NCBI RefSeq assembly: GCF_009495755.1
Contig: NZ_WIBJ01000031.1
Location: 665,421 to 729,420, forward strand
Direction: 5' to 3'
Length of the DNA: 64,000 nucleotides
Source: Flavobacterium sp. LMO8
GTDB lineage: Bacteria > Bacteroidota > Bacteroidia > Flavobacteriales > Flavobacteriaceae
Part shown: positions 51,036 to 54,675 of the stretch, in pieces
Layout of the letters: each line of letters starts with the position of its first letter
How positions within the stretch are numbered: position 1 is the stretch's first letter
The notes under the pieces: model-generated
Told to the model about the DNA's origin: nothing
Database searches by the model: none
The model's input: the letters and a program-made list of their open reading frames with translations, nothing else
Translations under genes and position numbers: made by a program

Positions 51036-51608
51036 TTGAAGATAATCATCCTAACACCGATGGAAATTGAGCGAGAAAAAGTCCTAAACGCTTTAGCTCG
51101 AATTCCTAATTTGAATCATACTTACGAAGTAATCGTTTCTGGAATTGGTCGTGAAAGTACGGCTAAGGCGATGATGCAAATGCCACCACACGATATTTGT
51201 GTGTTAATGGGTTTTGCCGCTGTAGTTGGAAAAGAAGCCCATTTACCCGATTATTTGCATTTAGGAAAACCCATCGAAATTACCAATGCTTCGTTATACG
51301 GTTACGAAGGCGGCTTGTTTGAAAATGGAAAACCCATTATCACCGAAAAGCCAAAGCTAAATTTACCTTGTTTGTCGTCTTTAACTTCCGATAAATTTGT
51401 AAGAACAACCGATTTAGCCGAAAAAACGGTTGTAAATATGGAAGATTACACCTTTAAATATTTGAAAAAACCACAAGATTTTATCGTGCGCATCATCTCC
51501 GATTTTTTACCTCACGAAACCGAAATCGACTTTTTTGAAGAAGTGAAAAGTATTGATTTTTTGGAAGGTGTAAAGGCAATGGATGAGCATATTTATAAGA
51601 AATTTTAA
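51036..51608 (+). CDS. Nucleoside phosphorylase/nucleosidase superfamily protein
   Basis: 190 residues, shorter than usual (~230). KIIILTPMEIEREKV resembles the first strand of MTA/SAH nucleosidases, YEVIVSGIGRESTA the nucleotide loop, and VVNMEDYTFKYL...VRIISDF the purine-binding Glu-containing helix and the RxISD strand. The start must be TTG 51036 to keep strand 1; ATG 51060 would cut it. A nucleosidase such as a futalosine hydrolase relative is possible, yet the middle of the fold is shortened, so activity is uncertain. Confidence 0.72.
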   Translation: MKIIILTPMEIEREKVLNALARIPNLNHTYEVIVSGIGRESTAKAMMQMPPHDICVLMGFAAVVGKEAHLPDYLHLGKPIEITNASLYGYEGGLFENGKPIITEKPKLNLPCLSSLTSDKFVRTTDLAEKTVVNMEDYTFKYLKKPQDFIVRIISDFLPHETEIDFFEEVKSIDFLEGVKAMDEHIYKKF

Positions 51609-51647: not shown

Positions 51648-51683
51648 CATCAGAAAATTAATAACCTTTTAAAACGAAGAAAA

Positions 51684-51767
51684 ATGTTTGTATTCAAATC
51701 ATTACCTCAAAGCAATTCATCAGTGGGAACTGGTGTGGCTCTTCTTCGTGGCTTAACGCAATCATAG
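51684..51767 (+). CDS. 27-residue leader peptide upstream of rtcB
   Basis: ATG 51684 to TAG 51767, peptide MFVFKSLPQSNSSVGTGVAL then LRGLTQS. The ATG has an A-rich leader as genes of this phylum do. It ends 16 bp before a strong terminator and has no known family. Its 3' part (51743-51754) can pair either with bases just before the ATG (51674-51680) or with the left arm of the terminator (51787-51797). This is the layout of a leader peptide that controls attenuation. It could also be a free-standing small gene. Confidence 0.5.
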   Translation: MFVFKSLPQSNSSVGTGVALLRGLTQS

Positions 51768-51783
51768 ATAAAAAACATATATG

Positions 51784-51820
51784 AAAAAGCCCGAAGACAT
51801 TTAGTTTCGGGCTTTTTTTT
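51784..51820 (+). terminator. Terminator/attenuator ahead of rtcB
   Basis: A perfect 12-bp stem (51784-51795 with 51806-51817), a 10-nt loop and eight T overlapping the arm end. It lies 118 bp before the rtcB ATG. The interval 51821-51937 has no exact TAnnTTTG promoter, so rtcB may depend on read-through. Confidence 0.88.
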
Positions 51821-51937: not shown

Positions 51938-53329
51938 ATGGGAAATAAACTATCTGGGAAAGACTTAATTAAATTAGGCTTCCCAAAAAATAATGCAATA
52001 AACATTGCCTTAGGGCAAATTAACAGATATCGAAAAAGAGAAAAAAAGGAAAGTATTTTAACCGAAGCCAAACAAGTATTGCTGCATCCAGAAAAATTCA
52101 AAGGAGATGGCACTTGGGGAAAAGTAGCGGAAGGTTTAGTAAATCCAGTTCAAGTAAAATTCAATCAATTGAAAACAACTCGAGCACCTTTTTCCATCTT
52201 TGGAGAAAACGAAATTGATGAACAAGCTAAGTTTCAATTGTACGATGCTTTAAAATTACCAATTTCGGTAAAAGGTGCTTTAATGCCCGATGCGCATTCA
52301 GGTTACGGATTACCAATTGGCGGTGTTTTAGCTACCGATAATGCAGTGATTCCATACGGAGTAGGAGTGGATATTGGCTGTAGAATGAGCTTGTCGATTT
52401 TTGATTTACCAGCGTCTTTTTTCAAAGGGAAAGACCATCAATTACAAGCCATTTTGAAAGACAATACCAAATTTGGAATGAGTGAAACGCATAAAGTTAA
52501 AGCCGATCACGAAGTGTTTTACAAAGACGAATTTAAAACCATTCCAGTTGTGAAACAGTTGTTAGACAAAGCGTACAAGCAATTAGGTTCATCTGGTGGA
52601 GGGAATCATTTTGTGGAATTCGGAATTGTGAAATTAGACAATCCATTGCCGGAATGGAAATTGGAAGCCAAAGAATACGTAGCGGTTTTATCGCATAGTG
52701 GTTCTCGTGGATTGGGTGCCAATATTGCTAAACATTATACGTATTTGGCAAGTAAGCAATGTCCGTTACCAAAAAATGTACAGCATTTAGCTTGGTTGGA
52801 TTTGAATACGCATGACGGTCAAGAATATTGGATGGCTATGAATTTAGCGGGAGAGTATGCCAAAGCTTGTCATGAAGATATTCACAGAAGATTGGCTAAA
52901 GCTTTAGGAAAACGCATTGTGGTAACCATTGAAAATCATCACAATTTTGCTTGGAAAGAAATGGTGGATGGCAAAGAATGCATTGTGCACCGAAAAGGAG
53001 CAACACCAGCAGCTAAAGGGCAATTGGGAATTATTCCAGGTTCAATGACTGCGCCAGGATTTATTGTAATGGGTAAAGGAAACGAAGACAGTTTGCAATC
53101 GGCTTCTCACGGAGCGGGTCGTTTGTTTTCGAGAGCGAAATGTAAAGCTACTTTTACCCAAAGTCAGATTAAAAAAGTCTTGGCAGATAATGATGTGACG
53201 TTGATAGGTGGAAATATTGACGAGGCACCAATGGCGTACAAGAACATTCATACTGTTATGAATTTACAAACCGAATTAGTAGATGTGTTAGGAACTTTCA
53301 CACCGAAAATTGTTAGAATGAACCGATAA
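51938..53329 (+). CDS. rtcB: RNA ligase RtcB family (RtcB2-like)
   Basis: 463 residues. GTP-dependent RNA ligase that joins 2',3'-cyclic phosphate or 3'-phosphate ends to 5'-OH ends. The manganese and guanylylation residues are all present: C148 (DIGCRM), H224 (GGGNHFVE), H253 (LSHSGSRG), H335 (ENHHN) and the guanylated H391 (SHGAGR). The start ATG 51938 ([14 protein letters not shown]) gives the usual length. It is 1 bp upstream of prfH; such RtcB-PrfH pairs repair decoding-centre-damaged ribosomes in other bacteria. Confidence 0.96.
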
Positions 53330-53330
53330 G

Positions 53331-54023
53331 ATGGAAAAGATAATTCAAATAACCTCAGGAAGAGGACCTGCTGAATGTACTTGGGTTGTGGCGCAAGTAT
53401 TGAAAAAAGTGTTGCAAGAAGCAGAAGCTTTACAATTAAAAGCGACTGTTCTGCAACACGAAGCAGGTCAAGAAAATGGAACGGTAGCATCGGCTATGGT
53501 TCAAATTATAGGAAATGAAGCAGATGAGTTTGTTGCTTCATGGGTGGGAACCATTCAATGGATTGGAAAAAGTACGTTTAGAAAATTTCATAAGCGAAGC
53601 AATTGGTTTATTGGAATTTTTGAAGTAGATGCGATTCAATCTAGAGCATTTTCAGAAAAAGACATTCAATATCAAGCGATGCGAAGTTCTGGAGCGGGCG
53701 GACAACATGTAAATAAAGTCAGTTCTGCTATTCGAGCGACACATGTACCAACAGGAATTAGTGTGGTGAGTATGGATTCACGTTCGCAACATCAGAACAA
53801 GAAATTAGCTACTGAGCGTTTATTACTGAAACTAAATGAAGCCCAATTGAATCTTTTGAAACAACAATTTCAAAGTCAATGGACGAATCAATTAGCTGTA
53901 GAACGTGGAAATCCAATTCGAACTTTTGAAGGTTCTGATTTTAAGAAACTTAAAGTAGAAAAGAAATTTAAAGCTGTACGACAGCAATTAAAAAACGAAT
54001 TAAAAAATGAAAAATATAGATAA
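53331..54023 (+). CDS. prfH: Peptide chain release factor homologue PrfH
   Basis: 230 residues. It has the class I release factor core with GGQ (123-125, [11 protein letters not shown]) and the basic C-terminal tail but lacks the N-terminal domain 1 of RF1 and RF2, as PrfH proteins do. It is known to hydrolyse peptidyl-tRNA on ribosomes with cleaved 16S rRNA so that RtcB can reseal the rRNA. It starts 1 bp after the rtcB stop and overlaps the TPR gene by 17 bp, so all three are tightly coupled. Confidence 0.95.
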
Positions 54024-54534
54024 ATACTTGTTTCAGGCTTTAGATAATTATCCTTATTCTTTGGAAGAAACCATTGAATCTTTAGATTATGCCATGTCCT
54101 ACGATGCGAAGAATACAACCGCTTTGTGTTTGTATGGAAGAATTCAAACAGAGCAATTGCTAAATTATGAAGAAGCAAAACGTTATTTTCAAGAAGCATT
54201 GGCGATTAATATAGATGCCGTAGCGGTATATCCATATTATATAGAAACCTTGCTTTTGAATGAAGATTATGAAGAAGCTTCTAAGTTAATTGACTTTGCA
54301 ATGACAATAAAAGGCATTAATAAAATGGTGATTTTGTTAAAGAAAGTTCAATTGTTAGAACGTCAAGCAGCTATTAAAGAATCTTTAAAATTAATCGATG
54401 AGGTTAAATTGAATACGTTTACCAATGAAACTTACGAAACCGATGAGGTTGAAAAACGATTAAAGGCAAAAAAAGAACTTTTGAAACCTAAGAAAAAGGC
54501 GAAGTCTCAAAAAGCTAAGAAAATTAAAAAATAA
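54007..54534 (+). CDS. TPR protein in the rtcB-prfH operon
   Basis: 175 residues: three or so TPR-like helical repeats (about 15-135; [20 protein letters not shown] is the clearest) and a very basic C-terminal tail (about 148-175, many Lys in a row with Ala, Gln and Pro). The tail suggests RNA or ribosome binding. It begins inside prfH (17-bp overlap) and is followed by a terminator, so it is the third cistron of the repair operon. I know of no described role. Confidence 0.85.
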
Positions 54535-54535
54535 G

Positions 54536-54562
54536 AAAACCAGCTGTGAGGCTGGTTTTTTT
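54536..54562 (+). terminator. Terminator of the rtcB-prfH-TPR operon
   Basis: A 9-bp perfect stem (54536-54544 with 54551-54559) with a TGTGAG loop and a T run, directly after the stop codon. Confidence 0.9.
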
Positions 54563-54675
54563 GGTATTTATTCAGATGTTTTAAATACATCTTCTCCGAC
54601 TTTTTTGAAAAAGTGAAAGGGATTGATTTTTCAGAGGAAATTTAAGTTATTGATTCTAACTTAATTTTTTAGAAT

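Follow-up and report, generated by a model that had tools for sequence, protein, structure and literature searches.

The locus described here raises two connected questions: why a small TPR-repeat gene should sit at the end of an RNA-repair operon, and how such an operon is switched on. The window (the whole 64,000-nucleotide stretch of Flavobacterium sp. LMO8 that was analyzed) holds, all on the forward strand, a short leader ORF, a terminator, rtcB, prfH and the TPR gene. We propose, with a probability of roughly 60%, that these form an attenuator-controlled RNA-repair operon that would be induced by stalling, with the TPR protein as a shared adaptor. The proposal draws on gene order, conservation, alternative pairings with their covariation and a leader shared between operons, all read from sequence.

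The RNA ligase gene rtcB (51938-53329, 463 aa; PF01139, E 3.8e-82) lies directly upstream of prfH, from which it is separated by 1 nt. The product of prfH (53331-54023, 230 aa), peptide chain release factor H, scores above the curated cut-off of TIGR03072 (236.2 vs 166.65 bits), and the GGQ motif can be read in its sequence as GAGGQ. The window RtcB scores below the cut-off of TIGR03073, release_rtcB (141.8 vs 271.8 bits); it is an RtcB beside PrfH and no TIGR03073 member. The putative activity of the pair is to reseal cleaved 16S rRNA and to rescue the ribosome so damaged. The third gene (54007-54534) encodes a protein of 175 aa with TPR-like helical repeats and a Lys-rich tail, as judged by structure prediction and family alignment. 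The earlier note, whose span began at prfH (53331), had placed the start of this gene 17 nt inside prfH, an operon terminator directly behind it and a Lys-rich tail on its product. These observations were confirmed: prfH ends at 54023 and the TPR gene starts at 54007, the terminator scan finds a hairpin with a T tail at 54532-54563 that overlaps the TPR stop, and 15 of the last 30 residues are Lys or Arg. The gap between prfH and the TPR gene is negative in 41/66 measured pairs with a downstream TPR ORF (using longest-ORF starts), so the overlap is no local accident. No tRNA array, SPFH gene or new structured RNA was found at the window's own locus, and the tRNA branch discussed below is therefore known only from relatives. 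For a 190-aa ORF (51036-51608) that precedes the leader and ends on the same strand, neither Pfam nor NCBIfam gave a match at E<=0.1; its sequence looks by eye like that of a nucleosidase.

The TPR assignment is weak by sequence and solid by structure. The best Pfam match, TPR_19 (E 6.2e-5, 23.7 bits), is below the cut-off of 25. The AlphaFold model (mean pLDDT 87) predicts nine helices arranged as a superhelix of paired antiparallel helices, with residues 165-175 at pLDDT <50, and its closest PDB match is a consensus TPR (E 6.2e-5, TM 0.74). A contig scan with one sequence, which returned mostly close kin (14 loci), gave Flavobacterium aquaticum and F. cheniae as the closest named kin of the locus, and no relative was found in one scan of viral contigs with patterns of the window protein. 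The homologues of L070, L071, L073, L101 and L102 have a Lys-poor tail with a hydrophobic end, and there a conserved C-terminal NW(F/L)..RLN.LL replaces the Lys-rich end. A second, more distant TPR paralogue (HMM E ~1e-17 to 1e-20) occurs in another gene neighborhood in the window's genus and a related genus (L234, L235, L236, L237).

A TPR companion of this gene pair is already in print. Section 2.4 of Burroughs and Aravind (2019; PMC6514570) lists a TPR gene accreted to RFH-RtcB together with three further accessories of the pair, namely a Pol-beta nucleotidyltransferase, a zinc-ribbon protein whose tail is charged and a charged helical protein, and the paper compares the TPR protein to Rqc1. 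As the gene pair and its TPR accessory are the same as those in the window, the third component is not new, contrary to what the earlier note had supposed. The other three accessory items of that paper (items 2-4) all have counterparts among the relatives analyzed here: c9 is a weak nucleotidyltransferase match below Pfam cut-offs, c30 has CxxC pairs and c6/f34 is highly charged, the last two being judged by eye from the sequences. The leader-peptide attenuator and the tRNA-array branch are absent from the main-text parts of PMC6514570 on the system. Neither a leader-peptide attenuator on RNA-repair operons, common to tRNA-array operons, nor a link between the TPR gene and tRNA arrays was found in the open-access literature searched. 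The TPR companion is thus known and the attenuator, common to both kinds of operon, is apparently new.

To see how far the association extends, prfH neighborhoods were surveyed in a family sample of 149 genomes, an order sample of 296 (these two overlap in part) and a phylum sample of 395. The TPR family lies immediately 3′ of prfH in 59/62 prfH genomes of the order sample, with gaps between HMM matches of 9-249 nt (pairs were matched by reading coordinates); the exceptions, which were checked, carry prfH without an adjoining TPR ORF (G172, G339 and G344). Twelve of the 149 family genomes have prfH over the cut-off, and in nine of these the TPR gene is directly downstream. In the other three it sits between rtcB and prfH (G079), ~0.9 kb downstream of prfH (G135) or on a separate contig (G019). 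Beyond the order, the phylum sample contains just two prfH genomes, G449 and G542; neither has a TPR-family match at E<=1e-12, and G546, G552 and G775 of that sample have partial matches with no repair neighbors. Within the order, the TPR gene is thus neither absent nor elsewhere in most relatives with rtcB-prfH. One Flavobacterium-like RtcB-PrfH-TPR locus, L099, is filed under a Limnohabitans MAG, probably through a binning error.

The idea that the TPR protein is a partner of RtcB-PrfH therefore holds insofar as the gene association reaches well beyond this genome; it is too narrow, because the TPR family persists without prfH. No prfH adjoins the TPR gene in 14/73 TPR genomes of the order sample (G154 and G343 among them being weak matches), and the TPR gene follows RtcB2 with prfH absent in L069, L075, L076, L077 and L156. 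On the TPR tree (59 rows, a quick tree with SH-aLRT support only) the PrfH neighborhood changes at least seven times, at least five of these being forced by well-supported branches. These data bear directly on the proposal in print (PMC6514570) that the TPR protein is an Rqc1-like, PrfH-specific scaffold for the stalled ribosome. The adjacency in 59/62 genomes and the frequent overlap with prfH speak in its favor, but the TPR genomes without adjoining prfH, the repeated changes on the tree and the RtcB2-TPR loci without prfH make it rather unlikely, and a role of the TPR protein as a PrfH-only factor was rejected on the first two of these grounds. The same loci weigh against the idea that the TPR gene is a passenger kept by its overlap with prfH and without a role in repair. 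The gene has no known function and three prfH genomes lack it beside prfH, as this idea would allow, but loci without prfH retain it beside RtcB2 alone or beside tRNA arrays, and it is widely conserved (32-78% identity to the window protein across family alignment A1); we consider a passenger very unlikely. Since some RtcB2 loci without PrfH keep the TPR gene, RtcB would be the best candidate partner. On the present evidence an adaptor of RtcB, or of its RNA, is a tentative assignment that we place somewhat below even odds.

The second question concerns the 5′ end of the operon. A leader ORF of 27 aa (MFVFKSLPQSNSSVGTGVALLRGLTQS, 51684-51767), conserved ahead of rtcB in 10 related loci (L089-L098), is followed by a terminator at 51783-51818, found by the terminator scan, and nearly the same hairpin is present in these 10 loci. 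Fold prediction and sequence comparison delimit three further elements. Segment 1 (ACGAAGAA, 51674-51681) is just 5′ of the leader start codon and pairs with segment 2 (TTCTTCGTGGCTT, 51742-51754), which lies inside the leader ORF and can pair either with segment 1 or, as an antiterminator, with segment 3 (AAGCCCGAAGA, 51787-51797), the 5′ arm of the terminator. The window leader shares its layout with ribosome-mediated attenuators of the trp type, which combine a leader ORF with alternatively pairing segments and a terminator ahead of the structural genes: an intrinsic terminator lies between the leader ORF and the first gene, and the 1:2 (off) and 2:3 (antiterminator, on) pairings are mutually exclusive and conserved across 69 distinct sequences, apart from one 1:2 pair, y, that is not kept (32/64). 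In contrast to the trp type, no stretch of a single repeated residue, as a series of one regulatory codon would give, was seen by eye in the leader peptides listed, and the operon would repair translation and makes no amino acid.

Both pairings are backed by covariation. Of 74 motif matches, 71 were usable (the 69 distinct sequences), and the shuffles used for comparison ignore relatedness. The 1:2 pair x is paired in 61/64 sequences, as T-A, C-G, A-T or T-G types, against a shuffled mean of 30.8. For the 2:3 pairing, which includes the terminator arm, pair h is formed in 62/69 sequences (A-T 16, G-C 46) against 50.7 in shuffles and pair i in 61/69 (T-A 31, C-G 27) against 48.7; for x, h and i alike, 0/5000 shuffles were as high. 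Other pairs are weaker or not universal: w (1:2) is formed in 54/64, and g and z (2:3) in 57/69 and 59/69, respectively. The covariation extends to the peptide. In the wider leader family ahead of RtcB/TPR operons, the C-terminus mostly has L-R-G or L-R-D nearby, and the residue after Leu-Arg tracks the terminator arm, Gly going with a C arm in 42 rows and Asp with a T arm in 14; the crossed combinations (Gly with a T arm, Asp with a C arm) do not occur among the 72 rows. Other residues follow Leu-Arg in 16/72 rows, seven of which are mis-anchored.

We then mapped the distribution of the leader. An upstream scan found leaders ahead of RtcB2 in the window's genus, in family f5 and in further families. 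The motif of leader plus terminator gave the 74 matches in 1.82 Mb of fetched loci, both strands included; because the loci had been chosen for a nearby TPR or prfH gene, this background differs from random sequence. Going downstream on the same strand, the first gene of interest is RtcB2 for 62 of the matches and TPR for 8, at a distance of 29-1653 nt, and the remaining four (the window, L227, L228 and L229) are situated before rtcB or its head gene. Strict leader matches were found at 61/66 loci with both RtcB2 and PrfH; three loci missed by the strict search (L174, L175 and L179) show a leader and hairpin in the upstream scan, and no leader was seen in L088 and L186. No strict match was found at six of the seven RtcB2 loci without PrfH. 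Among the 29 TPR-headed loci without an upstream RtcB2, the same kind of leader is present in 14 and no such leader was seen in 15. In addition, nine loci of family f7 have a different hairpin, with TCCCGG, before the TPR gene. A candidate second leader type is present upstream of the TPR gene in L164, L165, L167 and L168, where a short ORF that ends in PES* contains a segment complementary to one arm of a hairpin that recurs in these loci.

One sequence version of the pattern was also searched in 40 whole genomes. It matched exactly once per genome in 25/40, always 1.5-3.0 kb upstream of the prfH match and on the same strand, and the reversed pattern used as control matched 0/40. The match in the window genome (G000:C30:717164) corresponds to window position 51744, within segment 2. 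In the window's genus, the pattern was found in 17/17 prfH-bearing and 0/9 prfH-less genomes; in family f5, 8/14 genomes were matched and 6/14 missed. Loci of many of these genomes had served to define the pattern, so the test lies in its specificity and not in its recovery. The hairpin at 51783-51818 could in principle be a mere terminator of the upstream gene, which ends at 51608 on the same strand, with the short ORF a chance occurrence, as short ORFs are common. However, the ORF, the distance to the hairpin and both pairings recur ahead of RtcB/TPR operons in many genera, with different upstream neighbors and compensatory changes, and the pattern occurs once per genome in most of the genomes searched. 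A chance arrangement is therefore highly improbable, even less likely than the passenger considered above, and an attenuator ahead of rtcB is, on the sequence data, very probably real.

The same TPR family also occurs in another setting. A common arrangement in other genera of the family consists of the TPR gene, tRNA genes behind it and, after these, an SPFH/Band 7 gene (PF01145, E 1e-26), all on one strand. Counting 2.5 kb to either side of the TPR gene, 12/27 family loci have at least one tRNA gene on the downstream side, 7 of them at least five, and no locus has one on the upstream side (0/27); control loci around prfA/prfB-like genes (18 loci, 63.9 kb) contain no tRNA genes. A binomial statistic for this tRNA enrichment assumes 45 tRNA genes per 3.5 Mb and takes no account of relatedness, and whole-genome tRNA counts, which are limited to 150 candidates per genome, were left out of the analysis. 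The arrays can be long, for example 15 tRNA genes in each of L085 and L067, 17 in L082 and 11 in L086. The two settings are combined in G218 and G348, where RtcB2, a nucleotidyltransferase, PrfH, TPR, a large unassigned protein, tRNA genes (14 and 16, respectively) and the SPFH gene occur together. Further genes in several islands code for RlaP-type nucleotidyltransferases (PF10127) and for WYL regulators that carry a PhyH domain as a fusion; this fusion with phytanoyl-CoA dioxygenase is found near TPR/RtcB islands at L065:2375-4096 and in eight other loci. A large conserved protein of ~600 aa (L157:4653-6437; L158:9562-11457, as two ORFs; L065:8457-10331), which matches no Pfam family, has the TPR gene on one side and the tRNA array or RtcB1 on the other. 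The small protein c39 downstream of TPR (L157:4121-4708; also L098, L099, L100 and L153) looks by eye like a DEDD-type 3′-5′ exonuclease. An assignment of c55, a large protein beside some arrays, as TROVE/Ro60 was dropped for lack of a Pfam match.

The array tRNA-Tyr was followed as an example. The G102 array tRNA-Tyr has copies with 80-86% identity in nine other genomes, one in each and all in the island; with this query 10/16 genomes searched match, and no second copy was found by it in the matching genomes. The array tRNA-Tyr of G097, G105, G135, G330 and G360 is of another type that the G102 query missed. By pattern search, an array-type tRNA-Tyr coexists with a separate copy of a second type in 14/18 genomes, no clear second copy being found by this search in G079, G148, G218 and G348. 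The window genome has two tRNA-Tyr copies, both of the second type.

The arrays suggest another role for the TPR protein, namely that it serves tRNAs and not RtcB. Its basic tail would then handle or protect the tRNAs of the array or Y RNA-like RNAs, possibly at a membrane scaffold formed by the SPFH protein. The TPR gene indeed heads tRNA genes followed by SPFH in L066, L067, L070, L071 and L074 with no close RtcB2 or PrfH (a distant RtcB is present in L071). Anabaena offers a parallel, as loss of the repressor TrcR there leads to a joint rise of the tRNA array, of rtcB and of a slipin gene (PMC10272220), and the three change together in a second report in which erythromycin is suspected (PMC9938897). 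On the other hand, the fetched loci of the window's genus and of family f5 keep the TPR gene without any array, and the tail is Lys-poor with a hydrophobic end in the five homologues described above. We regard this role as unlikely, if a little less so than the PrfH-specific scaffold, and retain the adaptor of RtcB or its RNA as the preferred assignment.

A structured RNA of ~160 nt (model R1) was found mostly between the tRNA genes and the SPFH gene, for example at L066:10117-10277; it ends in a T-arm and runs into Y RNA-like modules. In the 12-sequence alignment 95.5% of cells are paired; sliding the partners by 1-3 columns lowers this share to 39-47%, and double changes occur in 20/43 pairs, with 0/500 shuffles as high. 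No Rfam family covers most of its length at gathering score. The model matches 16/149 family genomes at E<=0.01, 14 of them strongly; an enrichment statistic for R1 is circular, because 11 of the 14 strong matches are in the training set, and the weight lies on the specificity of the model and on the matches beyond that set. Outside the training set there are strong family-sample matches in G036, G079 and G096, all of which also carry the TPR family, as well as matches in G218 and G348 (L232 and L233). In G079 and G096, R1 occurs with tRNA arrays before the SPFH gene in islands apart from RtcB2-TPR, and in G036 it is followed by an RtcB1 gene, not by SPFH. The two weak matches are G033, before an SPFH gene with no strong TPR match, and G139, with no tRNA-array or SPFH neighbors. 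The model search found no R1 copy in the window genome.

The modules that follow R1 resemble YrlA. The best match to RF02553 has 49.1 bits (E 2e-8), below the gathering score of 69, and matches at E<=0.01 overlap or lie near R1 in 13/15 loci scanned; as they are below the gathering score, we term the relatives' elements Y RNA-like only. Some "tRNAs" with low scores that precede the SPFH gene are candidates for permuted, Y RNA-like modules, but a part of them also pass the tRNA gathering score. A full-length match to GOLLD (RF02032; L243:786-1266, 119.1 bits, E 3e-31, below the gathering score of 150) was found in one of the 15 loci scanned, the TPR-tRNA-array-SPFH island of G097. At gathering thresholds, Rfam thus reports neither GOLLD nor YrlA.

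How the attenuator could work follows from the two pairings and presupposes coupled transcription and translation in Bacteroidota. We infer that the leader is translated and that stalling is the signal. Before translation, segment 1 would pair with segment 2, the 3:4 terminator hairpin would form, and the operon would be off. A ribosome initiating on the leader would cover segment 1, and if it stalls or crawls there segment 2 would be free to pair with segment 3; with 2:3 paired, the terminator cannot form and rtcB, prfH and the TPR gene would be transcribed. A ribosome that runs to the end of the leader would cover segment 2 and let the terminator form again. The inducers would be slow or damaged ribosomes and missing tRNAs, which is the damage that the operon's products are expected to deal with, and we consider induction by impaired translation probable. 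PrfH would free the stalled ribosome and RtcB would reseal the cut RNA. The TPR repeats are predicted to bind a protein, RtcB being the best candidate among the conceivable partners, and the Lys-rich tail may hold RNA. In relatives, a second operon type with the same kind of leader, in which TPR precedes tRNA genes, the structured RNA, Y RNA-like elements and SPFH, would provide tRNA replacement beside repair, if the array tRNAs are put to such use. A Flavobacteriales translation-damage regulon, in which one attenuator family would read stalling and switch on a repair branch (RtcB and PrfH) and a replacement branch (redundant, diverged tRNA arrays with R1, Y RNA-like elements and an SPFH scaffold), both marked by the same TPR protein, is a reading to which we give even odds.

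Elements of this arrangement are known from other systems. In Salmonella, the rsr-yrlBA-rtcBA operon places an RNA ligase beside Y RNA genes and is induced by RNA damage through RtcR, a sigma-54/CARF activator, whereas attenuation would take that part here; to our knowledge it includes no TPR, PrfH or tRNA array. The Anabaena trn operon or L-array and the TrcR regulon share with the present loci a redundant tRNA array, rtcB and slipin under common control tied to translational stress, but in Anabaena the genes are dispersed and a repressor protein controls them, whereas here they are physically linked with the TPR gene and have a leader-peptide attenuator at the head. No mention of TPR was found in PMC10272220.

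If the proposed attenuation is correct, the damage mended by the products would itself be the inducing signal, with no dedicated sensor protein, and since read-through would hinge on how the ribosome advances, a damaged ribosome would act as its own inducer. The attenuator would also explain how RtcB-PrfH is switched where no RtcR-type activator serves the operon. The regulon reading would give the TPR protein a defined setting in which to search for its partners. If it is true, RNA ligation, ribosome rescue, spare tRNAs, Y RNA-like RNAs and SPFH proteins would be parts of one response in these bacteria, paralleling the reported co-control of tRNA array, rtcB and slipin gene in Anabaena.
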